Source: Elusimicrobiota bacterium (GTDB taxonomy: Bacteria > Elusimicrobiota > UBA8919). Taken from it: a stretch of 46,066 bases of DNA. Below, in pieces: positions 9,375-30,088 of the stretch; the first letter of the stretch is position 1; the number at the start of each line of letters is the position of its first letter. The stretch spans positions 1-46,066 of the forward strand of contig JACRDL010000029.1 in NCBI GenBank assembly GCA_016218625.1, given 5' to 3'. Position numbers and translations under genes: made by a program. A model generated the notes under the pieces. It saw only the letters and a program-made list of their open reading frames with translations. It was not told the DNA's origin and did not search any database.

Positions 9375-9836
9375 TTAAAAATCTGAATATGATTTAGAAT
9401 ATACTTCTCCATCTTTAGGATTATACTCCCATTCATTTTCGGGTTCAGGAATTTTCCTCAAATATTTTGGGACCAAATCCTGTAAAGATTTTGGATAAAT
9501 ACCCTCGTGCACACCATAATAAATCGTAAGTGCTGACCTTAATGCGCCGAGATTCTCCATCATTTCTCTTTTTTTCTTTTCTTTTTTACTTTCAAAAATT
9601 AGTTTAATTTTTTCAATAAATCTGATGAACAAATTTTCTTTACCAATTCTATTCCAACTGCCGCCAAAGTGGTTTTCTTCTACAACGCCAGTAATTTTAT
9701 TACAGCGAACATGTCCAGTACCAGTAAAATAATATTTAGGATATACAATATAAAAAACCGCACCTATTGCAATAACAATCAAAATCCATTGCCACCACTT
9801 AAAGTTTTTCAATTTATCCTCCTCTTGAAAATTCAA
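9375..9836 (-). CDS. membrane-anchored pseudopilin-like protein
   Basis: N-terminal TM WWQWILIVIAIGAVFYIVY; C-terminal ENLGALRSALTIYYGVHEGIYPKSLQDLVPKYLRKIPE resembles type II secretion pseudopilins. Confidence 0.5.
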   Translation of the reverse strand: MNFQEEDKLKNFKWWQWILIVIAIGAVFYIVYPKYYFTGTGHVRCNKITGVVEENHFGGSWNRIGKENLFIRFIEKIKLIFESKKEKKKREMMENLGALRSALTIYYGVHEGIYPKSLQDLVPKYLRKIPEPENEWEYNPKDGEVYSKSYSDF

Positions 9837-11161
9837 TACTCTTCTACTTTATCTTTTGTCACTCTTGCGTAAAAGAATTTTGGCGGTTTGACTTTTTTAG
9901 CGCCTATGGTGTAGGCATTCAGGAATTTATTCTTCGCTTCGTTGAATTTTTTTTCATCGCCGTCGGTGTGGAAGATTGCAAGCGGCTCGCCTTTTTCAAT
10001 TTTGTCGCCGATTTTTTTCTTTAAGTAAATGCCGACCGACGGGTTCACAATATCTTCTTTCTTGGTTCTGCCGGCGCCCAAAATCAAAGATGAAATACCG
10101 ACTTCAAGTGCATTTATTTTTTCAACATAGCCGGATTTTTCCGATTTAATTTCAACCAATTTTTTACATTGAGGTAAAAGTGAAGGATTATCAATCGCAT
10201 CGGGATTCCCGCCCTGTGCCTTCGCCATCTGTTTCAGTTTTTCAAGCCCTTTCTTCGAGGTGATTATTTCTTTCAGTTTTTTCTTGCCTTCTTCCACCGT
10301 CTTAACAAGCCCGGAAATCAAAAGCATATTGCTTCCGAGTTCAACGCATAAATCGGTCAAGTCCGCAGGTCCCACGCCGCTTAATGTGTCAATCGCTTCC
10401 TTGACCTCAATTGAATTTCCGATAGCAAATCCCAACGGCTCTTCCATACTGGTGATAAACGCAACCATTTTTTTGCCAGCACCTTCGCCGATATCAACCA
10501 TCGCTTTTGCAAGTTTGAGAGCATCTTCATATTTTTCCATAAATGCGCCGGAACCGGTTTTCACATCAAGCACGATTCCGTCGCTTCCGGCGGCAAGTTT
10601 TTTTGACATAATGCTTCCGGCGATAAGAGGAATTGAATCCACCGTCGCCGTAACATCTCGCAGTGAATAGATAACTTTATCGGCAGGTGCAAGTTTTGCC
10701 GTCTGACCCATCAGCGCAAGCCCGATACTATTTACATTCTCAACAAATTTTTCTTTTGACAATGAACAGGTAAAACCCGGAATTGACTCAAGTTTATCAA
10801 TAGTTCCGCCAGTATGTCCCAGACCGCGGCCGGTCATTTTTGCCACTTTGCCACCACATGCAGCGACAATCGGACCGAGCACAAGCGAGGTCGTATCGCC
10901 GACGCCGCCGGTTGAGTGTTTATCAACTTTGAAACCTTTTATTTTTGAGAGGTTCACCCTTTCGCCTGAATCAACCATAGCCATCGTCAAATCGGTCGAT
11001 TCCCTCGCCGTCATTGAGCGGAAATAAACGGTCATCAAAAACGCCGCCATCTGGTAATCTGGAATTTCGCCTTTTGTAAAACCACTGATAATAAAATTGA
11101 TTTCCCCTTTTGATAGTTCCGCCCCGTTCCTCTTTTTGTAAATCAAATCGTACATTCTCAT
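9833..11161 (-). CDS. deoA: pyrimidine-nucleoside / thymidine phosphorylase
   Basis: VDKHSTGGVGDTTSLVLGPIVAACGGKVAKMTGRGLGHTGGTIDKLESIPGF; start at MRMYDLI preceded by GGAGGG. Confidence 0.95.
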   Translation of the reverse strand: MRMYDLIYKKRNGAELSKGEINFIISGFTKGEIPDYQMAAFLMTVYFRSMTARESTDLTMAMVDSGERVNLSKIKGFKVDKHSTGGVGDTTSLVLGPIVAACGGKVAKMTGRGLGHTGGTIDKLESIPGFTCSLSKEKFVENVNSIGLALMGQTAKLAPADKVIYSLRDVTATVDSIPLIAGSIMSKKLAAGSDGIVLDVKTGSGAFMEKYEDALKLAKAMVDIGEGAGKKMVAFITSMEEPLGFAIGNSIEVKEAIDTLSGVGPADLTDLCVELGSNMLLISGLVKTVEEGKKKLKEIITSKKGLEKLKQMAKAQGGNPDAIDNPSLLPQCKKLVEIKSEKSGYVEKINALEVGISSLILGAGRTKKEDIVNPSVGIYLKKKIGDKIEKGEPLAIFHTDGDEKKFNEAKNKFLNAYTIGAKKVKPPKFFYARVTKDKVEEY

Positions 11162-11180
11162 AAAATCCCTCCGTCTAAAA

Positions 11181-11200
11181 ATCACTACAAATGTAGTGAT
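11181..11200. promoter_or_regulatory. Candidate operator or palindromic repeat upstream of deoA
   Basis: atcactacaaatgtagtgat perfect 9+2+9 palindrome; related sequence upstream of recJ at 13473-13500. Confidence 0.35.
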
Positions 11201-11234: not shown

Positions 11235-13454
11235 CTACAAATCTGTATAATCTGCGGTTGGCTTTATATCCAAAATCATAAGTTGTGCCGATTCTCTTGA
11301 TTGCCACACGTTTATTTCAAGATGGAATACAACATCAACCTTTTGACCTTTTCTGAAATCCGCGGCGCGACGACCCAACTGCCAACCGATACCGCCGATG
11401 CCCATTTTATCATTCTTAAAACGAGCACGCAAATGTGCCCCATCAATTCCTACACTTGAAAAATCGCCTAATATGACATCACTGGCAATAAAAATTGGAT
11501 GTTCATTGCCAAAACCATATGGTTCTAAAAGTTCAAGTTCTTTTATAAGATTAACTGAAATATCCGAAACTGAAATCGCCGTGTCAATTGAAAGATGAGG
11601 CACGAGCATTTCGTCCGTTATCAAACTATTTGCCACAAATTTTATACGCTTTATAAATTCTTCCAGATTTTTTTTGGCGACGGTTAAACCCGCAGCAGCC
11701 TTGTGCCCACCGTATTTTACAACAATATCTTTACATTTTTCAATCGCAGACACGATGTCAAATCCGCTGATGCTTCTTGCCGCGCCCATTGCCTCATCAT
11801 TTTCCAAAATCAGAAGTATTACCGGCTTTCCGAACTCTCTTATTATTTGGTTAGCGGCGATTCCGGTAACGCCATGTTTTAGATGAGCAACTATCGTGAC
11901 AAAAATTTTATCGTTTTCAATATCATTTTGCTTAACGGTCTCGTCAATAAAACTTTTTATGTTGATTTTCTGCAGGTCCTTTCTTTCGCCGTTAATCTCA
12001 AGAATTTCATCAAGCAGAAACTCGGCGCGGGCTTTATCGTCGGTAATAAGCAACTCTGCAGATAATACTGCTTTTCCGTAACGGCCGGCGGCGTTCAAAA
12101 GCGGAACTATTGACCAAGATACCTTTTTTGCCGTGAAAGATTTTTTTTCAATTTGGAGGTTATCAATCATCGCACATATCCCTGGTTTTTTTGAACCATA
12201 AAGAAGTGGCACACCGTATTTTACAAAAATTCTGTTCTCCGATACCAGCGGGACTATGTCGGCGATAGTACCTAATGAAACAAGATAAAGATACCCCTCA
12301 ATAAATTTCCGTTGTTTTTTTTCCGTAAATATTACAAGTCGTTCAAAAACTTTTGAAGCAGTCGCCGCATCGCTTAATGCACGGTGATATCGCGATATTT
12401 CTATGTCCATATCTTTTGCGAGGGCGTCAAGCCCGTGTGACTTAAAAGGATATAATTTACGGGAAAGTTCAAGCGTATCTACAACATCATTCGGAATTTC
12501 TCTTTTTATTTTTTTTGCAGCGCGGTATAAAAATGCCATGTCAAAATTTGAATTGTGGGCGACAAGAATTGAATCGCCGATAAAACTTAAAAACTTTTTC
12601 ATAACCTCGGAAATATCCGGCGAAAGTTTACAATCGTCATCCGTTATACCGTGGATGGCGCTGACATTTTTAGGAATTGATTTTTTGGGCTTGACAAGTG
12701 CGGAGAATTTTTCAATTTCAATAAAATTGCGAATTTTTACGGCGCCGATTTCAACAATTTCATCCATCAACGGCGAAAGACCCGTCGTCTCAATATCCAG
12801 AACAACAATATCTTTTGCAAAATAATCAGAGTATGAAAATGCGACCGCCTGAAAAAGTTTGAATGCAACTCCGCATCCGGCAAGTTCCTTAAAAGGATAT
12901 AATTCATTCGGACATTTCGGGTCAATTATCGCGACTGCTTTCGGAAGTTCTCTCGGCGGTTCGTGATGGTCGGTAATTATTATATCAAGCCCGAGCGAAT
13001 TCGCAAAATTAACTTCTTCAACGGCGGTTATCCCGCAGTCAACCGTTATTATCAGACCGACCCCTTCCTTTTTATATTTTTCAATTAACTCATTATGCAA
13101 ACCGTATCCCTCGCCCGACGGTATATACCACAGTACATCCGCACCGAGTTCTTTGAGATACAAATAAGCGATATTGGTTGAAGTGATACCGTCGACATCC
13201 CGGTCGCCGTAAATAAGAATTTTTTCTCTTTTGTCTATAGCGAGACGGATTCTGTTAACCGCTTTTTCCATATCCGCAAATAAAAACGGATTATGTAAGT
13301 CGGATATCCGCGGATGAATAAATTTTTCTATTTGTCGGGGCGTGCTTATCCCTTTCTGCAAAAGAATAGAAATAACTATTTTGGAATAACCGGTTTTTGT
13401 CGAAAGTTCGTCTATTAACGCGATATCGGATTGTTTAATTTTCCACTGTTTCAT
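11235..13454 (-). CDS. recJ: single-stranded-DNA exonuclease RecJ with an inserted DnaQ/PolC-like DEDDh exonuclease domain
   Basis: DHH motifs YGDRDVDGITST, IITVDCGI, IITDHHEP, AIIDPKCP, DHHA1 GGHKAAAGL; insert VVLDIETTGL...HNSNFDMAFL...HRALSDAAT. Confidence 0.9.
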   Translation of the reverse strand: MKQWKIKQSDIALIDELSTKTGYSKIVISILLQKGISTPRQIEKFIHPRISDLHNPFLFADMEKAVNRIRLAIDKREKILIYGDRDVDGITSTNIAYLYLKELGADVLWYIPSGEGYGLHNELIEKYKKEGVGLIITVDCGITAVEEVNFANSLGLDIIITDHHEPPRELPKAVAIIDPKCPNELYPFKELAGCGVAFKLFQAVAFSYSDYFAKDIVVLDIETTGLSPLMDEIVEIGAVKIRNFIEIEKFSALVKPKKSIPKNVSAIHGITDDDCKLSPDISEVMKKFLSFIGDSILVAHNSNFDMAFLYRAAKKIKREIPNDVVDTLELSRKLYPFKSHGLDALAKDMDIEISRYHRALSDAATASKVFERLVIFTEKKQRKFIEGYLYLVSLGTIADIVPLVSENRIFVKYGVPLLYGSKKPGICAMIDNLQIEKKSFTAKKVSWSIVPLLNAAGRYGKAVLSAELLITDDKARAEFLLDEILEINGERKDLQKINIKSFIDETVKQNDIENDKIFVTIVAHLKHGVTGIAANQIIREFGKPVILLILENDEAMGAARSISGFDIVSAIEKCKDIVVKYGGHKAAAGLTVAKKNLEEFIKRIKFVANSLITDEMLVPHLSIDTAISVSDISVNLIKELELLEPYGFGNEHPIFIASDVILGDFSSVGIDGAHLRARFKNDKMGIGGIGWQLGRRAADFRKGQKVDVVFHLEINVWQSRESAQLMILDIKPTADYTDL

Positions 13455-13517: not shown

Positions 13518-14336
13518 TCAAATCACTTTCACTATTTCTTTGATATAACTGCTTAATCGTTTTTCAATTTTTTTGCCGATTGCAATCACTTCCTGATGAT
13601 TCAGCGGCTGTTTCAGAATGCCGGCGGCCATATTGGAAATGTATGAGATGCCGAGAACTTTTATTCCACAGTGATTGGCGACAATCGCTTCGGGGACGGT
13701 TGACATCCCGACAACATCCGCACCCAAAATCCGGGCCATATTCACCTCCGCCGGCGTTTCATATGATGGACCCGTACCGGCAAAATATACTCCTTTTTGA
13801 ATTTTGATTTTTAATGCTTTCGCACACTTTTGTGCTTTTTCAATTAACTCGCTTTTATACACCGTCGACATATCGGGGAAACGGGTTCCCTGCAAGGCGC
13901 CCTCGGTGCCCATTAGAGGATTTTCTCCCATAAAATTGATATGGTCGCGAATCAGCATAATATCGCCGGGATGGAATTTTTTGTTTACCGCGCCTACAGC
14001 GGCGGTGATAATAAGTTTTTCAACCCCGAGATGTTTCATAAGCCGCTGGGGATAAGTTATGTCTTTCATTGTATGTCCTTCATAAAAATGAATGCGGCCA
14101 GCCATAATCATAACATTTCTGCCGGATAATTTTCCGATGACAAGTTCGCCTTTATGTCCTTCAACGGTTGATTTCGTAAAATGGGGAATTTCTCCGAAAG
14201 GAATCCGGACGGCATCCGAAACTGCATCGGCAATAGACGATAAACCCGAACCGAGAATTAAAGCGACTTCCGGTTTTAATTTTGTTCTGCCCTCAATAAA
14301 CTTTTTTGATTCTTCCAAGTTTTCTAATAATCCCAT
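13518..14336 (-). CDS. punA: purine nucleoside phosphorylase
   Basis: ALILGSGLSSIAD, HFTKSTVEGHKGELVIGKL, GDIMLIRDHINFMGENPLMG, GTGPSYETPAEVNMARILGADVVGMSTVPEAIVANH. Confidence 0.93.
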   Translation of the reverse strand: MGLLENLEESKKFIEGRTKLKPEVALILGSGLSSIADAVSDAVRIPFGEIPHFTKSTVEGHKGELVIGKLSGRNVMIMAGRIHFYEGHTMKDITYPQRLMKHLGVEKLIITAAVGAVNKKFHPGDIMLIRDHINFMGENPLMGTEGALQGTRFPDMSTVYKSELIEKAQKCAKALKIKIQKGVYFAGTGPSYETPAEVNMARILGADVVGMSTVPEAIVANHCGIKVLGISYISNMAAGILKQPLNHQEVIAIGKKIEKRLSSYIKEIVKVI

Positions 14337-16236: not shown

Positions 16237-17418
16237 TTATATTATCTCTTTTAAAAAACTTTTTCCATTTTTAAGTTCTATTTTAAAAATTTCCGCAATC
16301 GTTTGACCCAAATCCGCAAATGTCTCTCTTGTTCCGAGATTAACGCCTTTTTTTAATTTTTTTCCGAATACAAAAAGCGGAACATATTCTCGGGTGTGGT
16401 CAGTGTGCACGGTGTGAGTTGGGTCGCAACCGTGATCGGCGGTAATAAAAAGAATGTCGTCATCAGCCATAGCATCAAAAAATTTCAGAAGATATTCATC
16501 AAACTCTTTTAAGCCGTTGTAATACGCCTGAACATCCCGTCGGTGGCCCCAGAGCATATCAAAATCAACAAGATTGGTAAAAATAAATTGACGGATGACG
16601 GATGACGGATGACGGATGACGGCTTCAAGGGTTTTTTCCATACCATCCATATTGGATTTTGTAGTCGCAAAATTGCTAATTCCGTGACCGTTAAAAATAT
16701 CTTTAATTTTCCCGATACCGTGAACCTCACCGCCGGATTTTACTATTTTATCAAGCAAAGTTTCGTCTGGGGGGTCTATTGCGTAATCGTGCCTGTTTGA
16801 TGTCCGTTTGAAATTTCCGGGAGTTCCTATAAACGGCCTCGCTATTACCCTTCCTATATTATGCGGCGCAACGAACATTTTTCTGGCAATCTCGCAAATT
16901 TGATATAAACGTTTTAGACCAAAAATTTTTTCATCCTCGTGTGCAGCAATCTGAAAAACACTGTCGGCAGAAGTATAGACAATTGGATAACCGGTTTTGT
17001 AATGTTCGTCGCCGAGTGCTTTTATTATTTCAGTCCCCGATGATGCGTAATTTCCGAGCGTTTTTGTGCCGATTTTATTTTCATATTCGGCAATTAAGTC
17101 CTTCGGAAAACCGTTCGGATAAGTCGGAAGCGGTTTTTCTGTAATTATTCCCGTCATTTCCCAGTGGCCTATCGGAGTATCTTTGACGTTTGATGCTTCG
17201 TTCATCTTGCCGTAAGAACCAATTAAATCAGTATTAAGTGGTAAGTGGTAAGTGGTAAGTAAGTGATAGAGTCCTAATTTTGCCAAATTCGGAAGATTAA
17301 AATCCATAACCTGTTTTGCGATGTTGCCGAGTGTGTTGGCACCCGCATCGTTATATTTTTCAGCATCGGGCAAAGCCCCAACACCGACAGAATCAAGAAC
17401 AATTAAAATGATTTTCAT
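16237..17418 (-). CDS. deoB: phosphopentomutase
   Basis: IILIVLDSVGVGALPDAEKYNDAGANTLGNIA; GHWEMTGI; FITADHGCDPTHTVHTDHTREYVPL. Confidence 0.96.
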   Translation of the reverse strand: MKIILIVLDSVGVGALPDAEKYNDAGANTLGNIAKQVMDFNLPNLAKLGLYHLLTTYHLPLNTDLIGSYGKMNEASNVKDTPIGHWEMTGIITEKPLPTYPNGFPKDLIAEYENKIGTKTLGNYASSGTEIIKALGDEHYKTGYPIVYTSADSVFQIAAHEDEKIFGLKRLYQICEIARKMFVAPHNIGRVIARPFIGTPGNFKRTSNRHDYAIDPPDETLLDKIVKSGGEVHGIGKIKDIFNGHGISNFATTKSNMDGMEKTLEAVIRHPSSVIRQFIFTNLVDFDMLWGHRRDVQAYYNGLKEFDEYLLKFFDAMADDDILFITADHGCDPTHTVHTDHTREYVPLFVFGKKLKKGVNLGTRETFADLGQTIAEIFKIELKNGKSFLKEII

Positions 17419-19124
17419 ACAAAAAGTTCTACAAGTTTCATCTTACTGACATCTACAAGTCCTTTGTCGGTTAATTTTAATTCGGGGATTACAGGCAGAG
17501 CCAGAAACGAAATTGTCATAAACGGGTCGTCTAATTTACAGCCGAGCTTTTTCGTCACAGCAACCAATTTTTCAAGTTCAGATACAACTTTTTCAAGCGG
17601 CTTGTCCGTCATAAGCCCGGCAATGGGAAGAGGTAAATGCCCGAGAACTTTTTCACCGTCGGCAACGCATAAACCGCCGCCCATTTTCACAATTTCAACG
17701 CAGGCGGTAAAAATTGACTTATCATCAACACCGACGCAGATGATATTGTGAGAATCATGTGACACCGATGATGCAATTGCACCTTTTTTTAAACCGAAAC
17801 CTTTCACGAAACCCTTGCCGATATTTCCCGAAGCAAGATGTCTTTCCACTACAACCATTTTTAATATATCATTTTTTATATCGGAGACAGCTATCTTATT
17901 TTCAATTTTTGCCCGGCAAATCTTTTTTTTCGTAATTATCTGGTGCGGAACAATTTCTACAACACGAATCTTTTTTGCTTGAGGTAACGCGGAAATTTTG
18001 AAATCGTTATCACGAAGCCATCTGACATTTATTGAACCGCGAAGCATCCCGGTAAGTTTCACCTTTTTTGCTACGAATTCACCGTTGACTGAAGCCAAGT
18101 CGCCACGGCGGAAAACCATAACGGGCTTTATCTCTTTCAGATTATTTAGTATAACAATATCCGCCTGATAACCAGGAGCAATGGCACCGATTCTCGGCAG
18201 ACGAAAATACTCGGCAGTGTTAATGGTAGCCATTTTTATCGCAGTAATAGGGTTTAACCCAAGTGAAATTGCTTTTCTTATTATAAAATCAATAGAGCCC
18301 TCTTTCACCAAATCCTGAGGATGCCGGTCGTCGGTTACAAAAAAGAAACGGGAATAATTTTCTTCATTGACAAGCGGAATTATATCTTTTAAATTTTTTT
18401 CAGAAGTTCCTTCTCTCACCATTACATACATTCCCTTTTCAAGTTTTTCTTTCGCTTCCAACATTGTTGTTGACTCATGGTCAGATGCAATGCCGGATGT
18501 TATGTATGACGATAATGCTTTTCCCATTAGCCCCGGGGAATGACCGTCTACCCTTTTTCCGGATGCGATTTTCATTTTATTTAACAGGTCATCGTCGGCA
18601 GATATAACGCCCGGAAAATTCATAACCTCACCCAAGCCCACAACCCATTTTTCTTTTAGAAACGGATACAAATCAAAACCGGTAAGATGCGCCCCGGCCG
18701 TTTCCATCTGAGTTGCCGGCACACAGGACGGAAGCATAAAGAAAACATTTAGCGGCTGGTTTTTAGACGATTCCAACATATATTTTATGCCGTCAATTCC
18801 GAGAACATTTGCAATCTCATGAGCATCTGTGATAACGGATGTGACGCCTTTCGGGACAACTGCGCGGGCAAATTCGGAGACGGAAACCATTGAACTTTCT
18901 ATGTGAACATGCCCGTCAATAAATCCCGGGGCGATGTATTTTCCGCTTAAGTCCAAAACCTTTTTTGACTTGTAATTTCCGAAACCGACGACAAAACCCT
19001 TGTGAATGGCAACACTTTCTTTGCGAATCTCACCTGAAAAAACATTTATCAGTTTCCCGTTTTTTAACAAAAGGTCAACCGTAATTTCGCCTCTAGCCGC
19101 TTTGATAATTTCACGAATATCCAT
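17415..19124 (-). CDS. ade: adenine deaminase
   Basis: YIAPGFIDGHVHIESSMVSVSEFARAVVPKGVTSVITDAHEIANV; SHDSHNIICVGVD; MAVGGGL-like region; 4 nt overlap with deoB. Confidence 0.94.
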   Translation of the reverse strand: MDIREIIKAARGEITVDLLLKNGKLINVFSGEIRKESVAIHKGFVVGFGNYKSKKVLDLSGKYIAPGFIDGHVHIESSMVSVSEFARAVVPKGVTSVITDAHEIANVLGIDGIKYMLESSKNQPLNVFFMLPSCVPATQMETAGAHLTGFDLYPFLKEKWVVGLGEVMNFPGVISADDDLLNKMKIASGKRVDGHSPGLMGKALSSYITSGIASDHESTTMLEAKEKLEKGMYVMVREGTSEKNLKDIIPLVNEENYSRFFFVTDDRHPQDLVKEGSIDFIIRKAISLGLNPITAIKMATINTAEYFRLPRIGAIAPGYQADIVILNNLKEIKPVMVFRRGDLASVNGEFVAKKVKLTGMLRGSINVRWLRDNDFKISALPQAKKIRVVEIVPHQIITKKKICRAKIENKIAVSDIKNDILKMVVVERHLASGNIGKGFVKGFGLKKGAIASSVSHDSHNIICVGVDDKSIFTACVEIVKMGGGLCVADGEKVLGHLPLPIAGLMTDKPLEKVVSELEKLVAVTKKLGCKLDDPFMTISFLALPVIPELKLTDKGLVDVSKMKLVELFV

Positions 19125-25715: not shown

Positions 25716-28352
25716 TCACTTACCACTTAATCCTGTCTTCTTAATCCTTACAACTTTATCACTTAATCCTGCCCTTTTTATTTTCGGTATCAAAAATGAA
25801 AATGTTGAGCCAGAGCCAGGCGTTGAATCAAGCCAGATATTGCCGCCATGTAGTTCAATAATTGTTCTTACTATAAAAAGCCCCAAACCCGTTCCGCCGA
25901 CAATACGGGTATGCGTTGAATCAACCTGATAAAACTTTTCAAATATCTTTTTATGCTCTTCTTTGGGAATTCCTATGCCATTATCTGAAATGGAAGAACA
26001 AACAAAATCACCTTTCTCTCTCACAGTAATTGTGATTTGTCCTCTAATGTCGGTAAATTTCACGGCATTTGAGATAAGATTGTTGTAGACCTGCATTAAC
26101 CGCGAATGGTCGCCGTTAATTTTAGGAAGTTCTCTATCAATTTCAATTTGCAGATTTATATTTTTGTTTTTAATCTGATTGATGTTCGTTTCAACCGATT
26201 TTCGTATGACATCAGCCAAATCAAGTTGCTCTAATTTAAGTGTTATAAGTCCGCTTTCAATTTTTGAAAGATCCAAAAGGTCTCCGATGAGCCGGTTCAG
26301 ATGATTGCTTGACTGGTCCACTATGCCTAAAAATTTTTTTTGCTGTTCGTTAATTTTTCCCGCCTCTTCGTTCAAGATAACATGAACAAAACCTTTTATG
26401 GCGGTAAGCGGTGTTCTCAATTCATGGGAGACCATAGACACAAAATCATTTTTAACTGAATTCAGCCGCTCTAATTCCACATTTACTTTTTTAAGATGGT
26501 TGTGAATCCTGGCATTTTCAACGATAGCAGCCGTCTGTCCCGCCATAAGTTCCGCAAGCTGTATTTTGTCATCGTTGAAAAAATTCTGCAACTTGGAGTA
26601 AAAACAGAAAAGCCCTATATTTTTTTCTTCCACTTTTAACGGGACAAAAAGATGCGACTTGATGCCAGATGTTTCCCGCAAATTATTATATGCTTCGTTC
26701 TGAAATTTCATCTCATTTGTCGTTTGTACCTTCTCTTCTGCGAATATCTTGGAAATAAGTGCATCCGATTCTACCGGGATTTTCATTATATCTTTTTCGG
26801 CGTAATCCGGCGGAAACAGCGGCATAAGAAATTTTTGAGAATCATCTACGAGCCAGAATATGGCGTAATCCGACTCCAATGCCCTTATGGTTTTATCGGC
26901 AAGAACTTCAATTATTTCATCTAATTGCGGTTCCGTCTTTATTGTATTTGATATGTCTCTCAAAGTTATTAAATCGTTTACTCGTCGGGAAAGTTGTTCG
27001 TAAATTTTCGCGCGGTCTATCAGCCCCGCTATCTGGGAGGCAACCACCGATAAAAACCTTAAATCATCATGAGAGAATTTTCCCGTTACTTTGTTGCCCA
27101 AAACAAAAAGTCCGATAGTTTTCTTTTCCACCAGGGGAAGTACTATCAGGGAAGTCGCACCGTAGTCCTTATAAAGTTTTTGAATATCCGGCGACGATTC
27201 CATAAATAATTCGTTGGAAATAAATGTTGAGACATTTTTGAATGATTTTGCCAGTATGGAAGAGGGTTCGTCTGATAATGCCAATTCAAAACCCTTGAAA
27301 TCGCCAACACCGACCAGCGTATCATTTTGTTCGTCGTAAAGGATGAATCCGACAAGTGAAACGCTGGTAACAAACTTGATTTTGTCAATTACCGTTGCAA
27401 ACATTTCGTCTATGTTAATCTTGCCGGTAGCGGAAAAAATTATGTCGTTGAGCGCTTTCATTTCCTTTACTTTTGATATCAGACGAAGATTCGTATTTGT
27501 TAATTCTTCCGTTGTCGCCTCTACTTCTAATTCAAGCCGTCTGCTAAACTCCTGCATATCCTGATACATTTTTGAGTTTCCCACCGCAACCGCAAGATAA
27601 TCGGCGAGCGTAATGAGCGTTTTAACAAGATTGGTATCAAAAAATCTTTTGGTCCTTGAATTGACATTAAAAACGCCTATCGCCTTATCGTTGACTATTA
27701 TAGGAATGTGCACATATGACATTATGCCTTCCTTTTCTTCCAATATGGCGGTTTCGGGATTTTTTTCTTTCGTGGCATCGTTTATGATGAGCGTTTCTTT
27801 TGTTAAAAATGCTCGGCCGGCAAAACCTTCGCCGGGATGAAGATGAATGTTCCTTACAAACTGGTCGGTTAATCCGCGTGAGGCCTTAATCCGTAAAAGC
27901 CCGTCATCATCCAAAAACAGTATGCTTGTTGAAGGCATCATCATTTTCTGATGAACTAAATCCAAAAGCATATTTACAACATCGTTAATTTCTATCCGAG
28001 AAGTAATTGTTTTTGATGCGGCGAATAAAATATTCAGTGATTCCTGAGATACCATCTGGCGGTTGAAAAGCAGATTAAGTTCTTCCCCAATTCTTCCCGC
28101 TTTACCTAATATGTTTTTCTTTATTGAAACTTGTCCCAAACTTGTTCCAGAATAATCGCCGTTTATGGCCGAAGATACCATTTTTTCAACAAAAACAACC
28201 GGTCTAAAAATAAACATATATCCGAAAATAATAATCGCTACAAGAAACGAATAGTAAATAAGGGGAATATCGGCAATGAATTTTACAAATATAAAAAATA
28301 CTGCAATAAGCACAATAAAAAATATCAATCTAAAACTCAATCCTTTTTTCAT
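25716..28352 (-). CDS. membrane-anchored sensor histidine kinase with multiple GAF domains
   Basis: Two N-terminal TMs, several GAF repeats, H-box FVSMVSHELRTPLTAIKGFV, HATPase NLISNAVKFTD, DNGIGIPKEE, GGTGLGLFIV. Confidence 0.93.
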   Translation of the reverse strand: MKKGLSFRLIFFIVLIAVFFIFVKFIADIPLIYYSFLVAIIIFGYMFIFRPVVFVEKMVSSAINGDYSGTSLGQVSIKKNILGKAGRIGEELNLLFNRQMVSQESLNILFAASKTITSRIEINDVVNMLLDLVHQKMMMPSTSILFLDDDGLLRIKASRGLTDQFVRNIHLHPGEGFAGRAFLTKETLIINDATKEKNPETAILEEKEGIMSYVHIPIIVNDKAIGVFNVNSRTKRFFDTNLVKTLITLADYLAVAVGNSKMYQDMQEFSRRLELEVEATTEELTNTNLRLISKVKEMKALNDIIFSATGKINIDEMFATVIDKIKFVTSVSLVGFILYDEQNDTLVGVGDFKGFELALSDEPSSILAKSFKNVSTFISNELFMESSPDIQKLYKDYGATSLIVLPLVEKKTIGLFVLGNKVTGKFSHDDLRFLSVVASQIAGLIDRAKIYEQLSRRVNDLITLRDISNTIKTEPQLDEIIEVLADKTIRALESDYAIFWLVDDSQKFLMPLFPPDYAEKDIMKIPVESDALISKIFAEEKVQTTNEMKFQNEAYNNLRETSGIKSHLFVPLKVEEKNIGLFCFYSKLQNFFNDDKIQLAELMAGQTAAIVENARIHNHLKKVNVELERLNSVKNDFVSMVSHELRTPLTAIKGFVHVILNEEAGKINEQQKKFLGIVDQSSNHLNRLIGDLLDLSKIESGLITLKLEQLDLADVIRKSVETNINQIKNKNINLQIEIDRELPKINGDHSRLMQVYNNLISNAVKFTDIRGQITITVREKGDFVCSSISDNGIGIPKEEHKKIFEKFYQVDSTHTRIVGGTGLGLFIVRTIIELHGGNIWLDSTPGSGSTFSFLIPKIKRAGLSDKVVRIKKTGLSGK

Positions 28353-30088
28353 TTGTTATTTCCCGGTGCATTTTTTATAAGCGTTATATCAAGTGCGATA
28401 TTTAAGTATTTATACTGCTTCGTTAAATCGGCAAACGGAACTATTTCCGCCGAGATATTGTGAGCATCACATTCTTCAATAAGCATATTGTTAAAATCAT
28501 CCTCGGCAATAAATTGGGAAGGCGGAGGACCGAGCAGAACCATAATAGATACATTATTTGTAATGCATAGTTGTGCAAAAAGGGAATAATTTATCTTTTT
28601 ATCAAAATCATAACTTTTTTCAAAAATACCGGCGAGACGGAATTTTAATTTATGTTTTTTTATTACTTCCCTAAACTGTTCTTTCATTTTTTCAAAGTCC
28701 TTTTCATGTTTTTCGGGATAAAAATAAGCGACCTCCACCGGTTTAAGCAAATCATATTCGTCCTTAACAACGGGCTTCGGTGAAACAACTTGAGGCGGGG
28801 CGGGAGGAATTGTTTTTTTTGCCTCCTCAGATGGCACAACCGGTTCGGGTTCTTTTATCACTGCGCTTGGTTCAAGTTTTACTGGCTGCACCGGGATAGG
28901 TTTTGCCGGCGGCGGTTCCATCACTTCCAGTTCTGTTTCTGGAAGAAGTTCGCCTATAAACTCTTTTACCAACTCCATATTCATCGGAAGATTGGTCATT
29001 GCAGAATATGCTTTAATTCTTTTTAGGAAACCTTCAAGTTCTCTGATGTTTGATTTCAATTTACTGGCGATATAGATAAGAATTTTATCGTCCACTTCAA
29101 CTTGCTCGTTCTGAGCCTTTTTCTTTAATATCGCGACGCGCGTTTCCAAATCCGGCGGTTTTATATCTGCTATAAGCCCCCACTCAAACCTGGATTTCAG
29201 GCGGTCTTCAATACCGGCAAGTTTTTTCGGCGGCTTATCGCTTGTCATGACTATCTGCTTCTGATTTTCGTGCAGTATGTTGAAAGTATGAAAAAATTCC
29301 TCCTGGGTGGATTCCGCCTCCGATAAAAACTGAATATCATCTACAAGAAGTAAATCCAACGACCTGTAATGTTCTCTGAATTCCAGAAGTGTACCGTTTT
29401 TCACCGCCTCAATAACTTCTGCAGTGAATTTTTCGGTTGTGATATAAAGTACTTTTGCCGAACTATTTCTGTCTTTTATCGTGTTTCCTATTGACTGCAT
29501 TATATGGGTTTTTCCCAAACCGACGCCGCCGTAAATGAAAAGCGGGTTATATGTTTTACCGGGATTTTGAGAAACTGCCCATGCTGCCGCCTGAACAAAA
29601 CGGTTGCTGGATCCGACGATAAACTCGTCGAAAATATACCGTATATTAAGTTTCGGTTTCCAGAAATTATCCATTTTTTCCGTGGTAGGAGGGGCGGATT
29701 TCTCTTCCTTAATCTTTGACGGCTGATTTTGAACTGCCTGAATCTCTTCAACTTTCACTTCCGGGGGAATGGATGCTGACGGGGCCGTTTCAGCCACTTT
29801 TTCCAAAATTTCTTCAAGGTCGCTTCCGACACCGGCGATATCAACTTTCCCTACGGAACATTTTTCTTTAAGAAATTTTTCTACTGCCGATTTTTTTACA
29901 TCCGAAAGGTTATAAATATACATTGCAAAATTGTACTCCTGAGAAAGCGGCGTGAAAGGTTTCCCTGCGTCGCTGCCGACAAGTTTTACAATCTCGGCAA
30001 GGTCAATGTCAGAACAGGATATTAAAAGTTTATATCTGTTTTTATCGCGGTCACATGGCGATGGCATCAAATCCCATTTTTTAATCAT
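28349..30088 (-). CDS. DnaA-family AAA+ ATPase with novel N- and C-terminal domains and no DnaA domain IV
   Basis: FIYGGVGLGKTHIMQSIGN (Walker A), LDLLLVDDIQFLSE (Walker B), SNIRELEGFLKRI (sensor 2); ends match 30173 and 31162 proteins; 4 nt overlap with histidine kinase. Confidence 0.85.
   Translation of the reverse strand: MIKKWDLMPSPCDRDKNRYKLLISCSDIDLAEIVKLVGSDAGKPFTPLSQEYNFAMYIYNLSDVKKSAVEKFLKEKCSVGKVDIAGVGSDLEEILEKVAETAPSASIPPEVKVEEIQAVQNQPSKIKEEKSAPPTTEKMDNFWKPKLNIRYIFDEFIVGSSNRFVQAAAWAVSQNPGKTYNPLFIYGGVGLGKTHIMQSIGNTIKDRNSSAKVLYITTEKFTAEVIEAVKNGTLLEFREHYRSLDLLLVDDIQFLSEAESTQEEFFHTFNILHENQKQIVMTSDKPPKKLAGIEDRLKSRFEWGLIADIKPPDLETRVAILKKKAQNEQVEVDDKILIYIASKLKSNIRELEGFLKRIKAYSAMTNLPMNMELVKEFIGELLPETELEVMEPPPAKPIPVQPVKLEPSAVIKEPEPVVPSEEAKKTIPPAPPQVVSPKPVVKDEYDLLKPVEVAYFYPEKHEKDFEKMKEQFREVIKKHKLKFRLAGIFEKSYDFDKKINYSLFAQLCITNNVSIMVLLGPPPSQFIAEDDFNNMLIEECDAHNISAEIVPFADLTKQYKYLNIALDITLIKNAPGNNK

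Follow-up and report, generated by a model that had tools for sequence, protein, structure and literature searches.

A DEDDh exonuclease domain nested inside the RecJ nuclease of some Elusimicrobiota

Introduction

RecJ is a 5'-3' single-strand exonuclease. To our knowledge, few enzymes sit complete within the catalytic domain of another; among those acting on DNA, PolC is the well-known example. One gene of an Elusimicrobiota bacterium raises the question of whether RecJ can house a second nuclease of opposite polarity and, if so, where that domain came from and what the combined protein may do. The gene lies in a 46,066-nucleotide stretch of DNA (contig JACRDL010000029.1 of assembly GCA_016218625.1), here called the window. 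A first-pass annotation of the window had proposed that a complete DEDDh exonuclease interrupts an otherwise intact RecJ.

Results and Discussion

The open reading frame at 11235–13454 on the reverse strand starts with ATG and runs for 739 codons in one frame with zero internal stops. Pfam domains follow in the order DHH (residues 78–206, 1.7e-25), RNase_T (217–370, 2.3e-38), DHHA1 (514–605, 1.3e-12), and RecJ_OB (623–729, 1.4e-27). The RNase_T match covers the full profile (1–164 of 164, 132.8 bits), and the match to a PolC-type exonuclease profile is confined to residues 213–375 (4e-48). The NCBIfam recJ model TIGR00644 spans residues 24–730 (3e-160) and scores 534 bits against a cut-off of 397. 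The features of the gene are as follows.

11235–13454, reverse strand: RecJ-exonuclease coding sequence, 739 aa (ORF, Pfam, NCBIfam)
12837–13223, reverse strand: RecJ DHH domain, first part, residues 78–206, with motif I GDRDVDG and motif III TDHH (Pfam PF01368, 1.7e-25; catalytic columns conserved)
12297–12833, reverse strand: inserted segment, residues ~208–386, not in canonical RecJ (two-piece alignment to 8y30; insert-free orthologues with the same junction)
12345–12806, reverse strand: DEDDh exonuclease domain (RNase_T, residues 217–370), PolC/DnaQ-like (profiles; AF2 model against Pol III epsilon)
12789–12797, reverse strand: DEDDh motif I, D220 and E222 (invariant in 13 orthologues; in all 21 intact inserts)
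12540–12542, reverse strand: DEDDh motif II, D305 (orthologue alignment)
12369–12386, reverse strand: DEDDh motif III, H357 to D362 (orthologue alignment; modelled helix 359–398 continues to D399 of RecJ motif IV)
11262–12293, reverse strand: RecJ second part, residues 388–731, with motif IV D399, NAAGR, DHHA1, GGHKAAAG, and OB (Pfam, 8y30 alignment, orthologues)
11640–11915, reverse strand: DHHA1 domain (Pfam)
11268–11588, reverse strand: RecJ_OB domain (Pfam)

Alignment to Staphylococcus aureus RecJ (8y30) splits the window protein into two blocks, residues 3–213 and 390–731, which correspond to target residues 7–218 and 219–558. Because the two blocks abut in the target (218/219), the insert is about 175–180 aa long. 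It separates RecJ motif III (TDHH) from motif IV (GTIADIVPL). The first-pass annotation had placed it at about 12330–12815, and the RNase_T domain indeed falls within those bounds, whereas its estimate of about 160 aa was slightly short. The five DEDDh residues are D220, E222, D305, H357, and D362. On the RecJ side, D84/D86/D88, D139, D162-H163-H164, D399, R458, and H584 are all present, and the metal-binding motifs (DxDxDG, D139, DHH, the motif IV Asp, and GGH) are kept in every orthologue covering those columns. By each sequence criterion applied, the window protein is a RecJ, with DHH, DHHA1, and RecJ OB in order and a score above the TIGR00644 cut-off, and the insert qualifies as a DEDDh domain, with a full-length RNase_T profile and the D-E-D-H-D set. 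Pfam, NCBIfam, the 8y30 alignment, and the orthologue columns thus uphold the proposal of a nested architecture that contains both catalytic residue sets and has intact RecJ motifs on either side.

Structure prediction agrees with this architecture, with both folds modelled confidently by AF2 (mean pLDDT 91.3, pTM 0.82). The model was built on an alignment (A7) combining RecJ rows with exonuclease rows; an earlier alignment lacking the exonuclease rows left the insert unfolded. The composition of A7 was picked by trial until the catalytic residues lined up, and the alignment is therefore not independent evidence. In the model, the exonuclease domain has strands at 216–223, 233–242, and 245–253 and subsequent helices, and a single helix (359–398) links its last motif (D362) to RecJ motif IV (D399). 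Foldseek matched the model to RecJ structures along its whole length (8y30, E = 1.3e-45) and the insert region to Escherichia coli Pol III epsilon (2gui, rmsd 1.7 Å, TMt 0.85–0.86) as well as to the PolC exonuclease 2p1j. No structure joining RecJ and DEDDh was found among the matches listed in the PDB or in BFVD, a collection of viral structures. The way in which the model positions one domain against the other calls for a cautious reading.

We searched 295 Elusimicrobiota genomes, followed by ORF extraction and alignment. An intact insert is found in 21 distinct RecJ sequences from six families (f1, f2, f9, f11, f13, and f23), with an insert region of 184–187 aa and the complete DEDDh set; contig ends or a frame break leave four of the 21 sequences incomplete. 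Within the window's own family, seven of eight genomes, the window's included, encode RecJ with the insert, at 68–91% identity for the relatives. Over all insert bearers, identity is 62–91% in close kin and about 41–45% in distant families. The window genome is a draft of 124 contigs, which leaves room for an assembly chimera or frameshift artefact, but six families, whose genomes were assembled separately, have the insert at the identical position. So does PEVQ01000043 from Elusimicrobia bacterium CG06, which is probably the same assembly as genome G005 of the set searched. We therefore give practically no weight to an artefact; a chimera was one of two outcomes that the first-pass annotation had named as fatal to its proposal. 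Neither does the architecture appear to be already common: among the RecJ matches listed in plasmid, phage, and viral collections none carries the insert, as in the PDB and viral structures. One candidate second case, a 740-aa protein on a viral contig (L216:151-2370), was rejected, since it combines FtsK gamma, RNase_T, and BRCT without a RecJ domain.

The intact inserts form one clade (100/100). Pairwise dN/dS is 0.05–0.22 for the insert and 0.08–0.20 for RecJ in the same pairs, with synonymous sites saturated in several of them; the most reliable comparison, that of the nearest kin, gives 0.047 for the insert and 0.134 for RecJ. By this measure, the intact insert is under purifying selection at about the rate of RecJ itself.

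Other families carry altered versions of the segment. Inserts of 145–167 aa in f12 and f19 are missing some or most catalytic residues, and segments of 103–150 aa in f7, f10, f17, f21, and f3 lack the catalytic pattern. Outside f3, HMM comparison connects these segments directly to the intact domain (L022, 3e-51; L021, 1e-48; L024, 3e-15; L037, 7e-9; L028, 8e-9; L034, 2e-7; L035, 6e-5), while the inserts of L033 and L036 are not significant on their own. The f3 remnant matches the intact domain only weakly when compared directly (6%); its homology is transitive, through intermediates that match f3 (95.7% probability, E = 1e-8) and the intact domain (99.3%, E = 4e-20). In two f3 RecJs (L147 and L148), the remnant is wholly gone and the boundary residues EYNK are kept, a deletion scar. 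Judged from these alignments, the short, dead, and deleted inserts of the sister lineages are a decay series of one ancestral insert.

Loss appears to have occurred repeatedly. The f15 RecJ (L040) has no insert, yet it falls in a 100/99 clade beside f23 (intact) and f12 (dead). Like f25, also insert-free, it resembles the insert bearers in two respects: AGC precedes the junction, and the Tyr of motif I is replaced by a basic residue. The insert-free RecJs of f22 and f8 instead show the canonical sequences GDYDVDG and SGAG. This placement and these shared residues indicate that the insert was lost more than once. Well-supported branches of the tree imply that the intact state changed at least twice, the backbone being too poorly resolved for a higher count. 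RecJ catalytic columns are unchanged in all sequences covering them, whatever the state of the insert.

Two further observations concern RecJ itself. The basic residue of motif I (GDRDVDG, window 13188–13208) and the AGC ahead of the junction (C194, 12873–12875), common to bearers and likely insert-free descendants, could be an adaptation of RecJ to the insert. In f4, f6, and f18, RecJ was undetected in most genomes, including nearly complete ones.

The persistence of dead or remnant inserts beside an intact RecJ in f12, f19, f10, f17, f21, f7, and f3 means that the segment can endure without catalysis. Together with the modelled helix that joins the last exonuclease motif to D399, this could be taken to mean that the insert serves as a structural element or grips nucleic acid, its catalysis being incidental. 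We consider such a role unlikely: all DEDDh residues are kept in 21 of 21 intact inserts at low dN/dS, and the remnants change faster than RecJ at the protein level, with insert dN about 1.7–4.4 times RecJ dN in remnant pairs.

The phylogenetic distribution of other RNase_T genes offers a clue to what the nested domain may do. Among RecJ-bearing genomes, another RNase_T is absent from 19 of the 21 with an intact insert, the exceptions being G149 and G034, the latter with a divergent 187-aa protein; of the 39 genomes whose insert is dead, remnant, or absent, 33 have a stand-alone RNase_T and six have none. Gene gaps in draft genomes add noise to these counts (the window genome is 86% complete). 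The raw Fisher p of 1e-8 ignores phylogeny, and the tree gives only 2–3 independent contrasts, which favor neither direction. This pattern suggests that the nested domain replaced a stand-alone RNase_T exonuclease. Two genomes with a dead or absent insert (G077 and G067) contain no RNase_T at all, indicating that RNase_T function is dispensable.

The stand-alone RNase_T genes of the phylum form their own group in trees. With all outgroups included, the nested domain clusters with PolC-like and viral exonucleases (97/81); once the long-branch rows are taken out, its nearest group is the stand-alone exonucleases of the phylum (95/90), and the AU test on its placement gave p = 0.136. Either one of these stand-alone genes or a PolC-like gene may have been the donor. 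Four stand-alone RNase_T frames (L070, L107, L110, and L140; 278–331 aa) have an additional C-terminal region.

Given that the nested domain is the sole RNase_T in most of the intact-insert genomes and that PolC exonuclease domains are its top family matches, it could be a cryptic Pol III epsilon, serving replicative proofreading from within RecJ. Its host chain is RecJ rather than a replicative polymerase. Moreover, in each of the 20 genomes tested, whether or not they have the insert, DnaE retains nine of nine metal-site residues of its PHP domain, so a nested proofreader would probably not be needed, and G077 and G067 do without any RNase_T. In a 2026 survey, PHP domains with such sites are treated as active, and the majority of DnaE1-only bacteria have just one candidate proofreader, either PHP or DnaQ (PMC12926913), which also speaks against a second one here. 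A replication-fork or proofreading role is thus unlikely, and the specific identity of a hidden epsilon subunit strikes us as improbable.

In the window, recJ belongs to a same-strand cluster that encodes a transketolase-like protein, adenine deaminase, phosphopentomutase, a PiT-like phosphate transporter with a PhoU-like partner, purine-nucleoside phosphorylase (PNP), RecJ-exonuclease, and pyrimidine-nucleoside phosphorylase.

9833–11185, reverse strand: pyrimidine-nucleoside phosphorylase, immediately downstream of recJ (TIGR02644, 1.4e-171)
13518–14336, reverse strand: PNP, immediately upstream of recJ (PRK08202, 5.9e-112; conserved neighbour)
16237–17418, reverse strand: phosphopentomutase deoB, same cluster (TIGR01696, 2e-142; conserved neighbour)
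17415–19124, reverse strand: adenine deaminase, same cluster (TIGR01178, 1e-196)

Across genomes with both genes among the matches listed, recJ adjoins pyrimidine-nucleoside phosphorylase in 53 of 58, with gaps of 53–218 bp; in the remaining five, the two lie on different contigs. Among 20 relatives, recJ occurs with pyrimidine phosphorylase, and usually with PNP and DeoB, in f1, f2, f9, f10, f11, f13, f21, and f3 and not in f12. Because it is kept with an intact or a dead insert, the link belongs to RecJ and not to the insert. Nor is it obligatory, as several recJ genomes lack pyrimidine phosphorylase and many phosphorylase genomes lack RecJ.

This mutual independence would be expected if the protein were an ordinary repair RecJ, linked to the phosphorylases by history alone and without metabolic significance. 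We hold that reading to be rather less probable than a functional one, since the genes are adjacent in 53 of the 58 genomes across distant families. In addition, one genome of the window's genus (G004, 96% complete) lacks recJ-exo, pyrimidine phosphorylase, and a close PNP together, though these may lie in unassembled DNA; either co-loss or one missing stretch would account for it. Elsewhere in the window, a 579-aa protein (28349–30088) has a DnaA ATPase domain (1.5e-69) and is longer than usual DnaA, and a GAF-domain histidine kinase (25716–28352) comes directly after it.

How does the nested RecJ compare with known systems? It shares all domains and catalytic residues with RecJ (TIGR00644; 8y30, 5f55, and 2zxo), but the ~175-aa DEDDh domain between motifs III and IV is in none of the RecJ matches listed in the PDB or BFVD. 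Its insert is closest, by exonuclease profile and PDB sequence, to the PolC-type exonuclease domain (2p1j; PRK00448), although the host in PolC is a polymerase and here a predicted 5'-3' exonuclease. The closest design precedent is PolC, in which the DEDDh exonuclease is itself inserted inside the PHP domain (PMC3919608). DinG proteins of S. aureus and Bacillus subtilis likewise combine, within a single chain, a 3'-5' DEDDh domain and a different DNA enzyme (PMC12345164, PMC12525004), but as an N-terminal end fusion to a helicase rather than as a nested domain. Chains of the DHH family, B. subtilis NrnA and Methanocaldococcus jannaschii RecJ2, are reported to act as nucleases 3'-5' or in both directions (PMC5593865; PDB titles), and do so with a single DHH site and no DEDDh domain. 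We found no description of a DEDDh domain inside RecJ in the open-access literature, where absence is weak evidence. Within the scope scanned (Elusimicrobiota, PDB, BFVD, and the plasmid, phage, and viral collections), the protein is, from sequence, a variant of RecJ with an architecture for which no description was found. What is new here is the evolutionary history of the insert, through intact, dead, remnant, and deleted states.

Conclusions

The explanation that we favor, at a rough probability of 0.55, is that a PolC/DnaQ-type DEDDh 3'-5' exonuclease entered RecJ a single time, in the loop separating motifs III and IV, and that the resulting protein digests from both ends, took over a stand-alone enzyme's task, and feeds nucleoside and pentose salvage besides repair. 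Because both sites are intact and constrained in the window lineage, single-stranded nucleic acid would most likely be digested from either end, with RecJ starting at 5' ends, the nested DEDDh domain starting at 3' ends, and mononucleotides as the product. Once dephosphorylated by some further enzyme, these could undergo phosphorolysis by the purine and pyrimidine phosphorylases. The nested domain probably took over the job done in related families by a stand-alone RNase_T/DnaQ-like exonuclease, and the enzyme is probably a source of nucleotides for nucleoside and pentose salvage in addition to serving repair. The sequences themselves show the nested architecture, the two catalytic residue sets, the single origin of the insert, its purifying selection, its decay in sister lineages, and the conserved neighborhood; the two activities with their polarity and substrate, the takeover, and the coupling to salvage are inferred. 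A stricter version, in which the 3'-5' site is nested via the shared helix, the two-ended enzyme replaced the stand-alone RNase_T to become the nucleolytic front end of a salvage operon, and the nested copy decays where the stand-alone gene is kept, we advance only tentatively.

If the favored explanation is true, the window protein would be a candidate single-chain exonuclease acting from both ends. The steady link between recJ and nucleoside phosphorylases is unexpected. Elusimicrobiota relatives hold every stage, with the insert absent, intact, dead, shrunken, or deleted with a scar, so that how a single chain acquires and sheds a second active site becomes directly testable.
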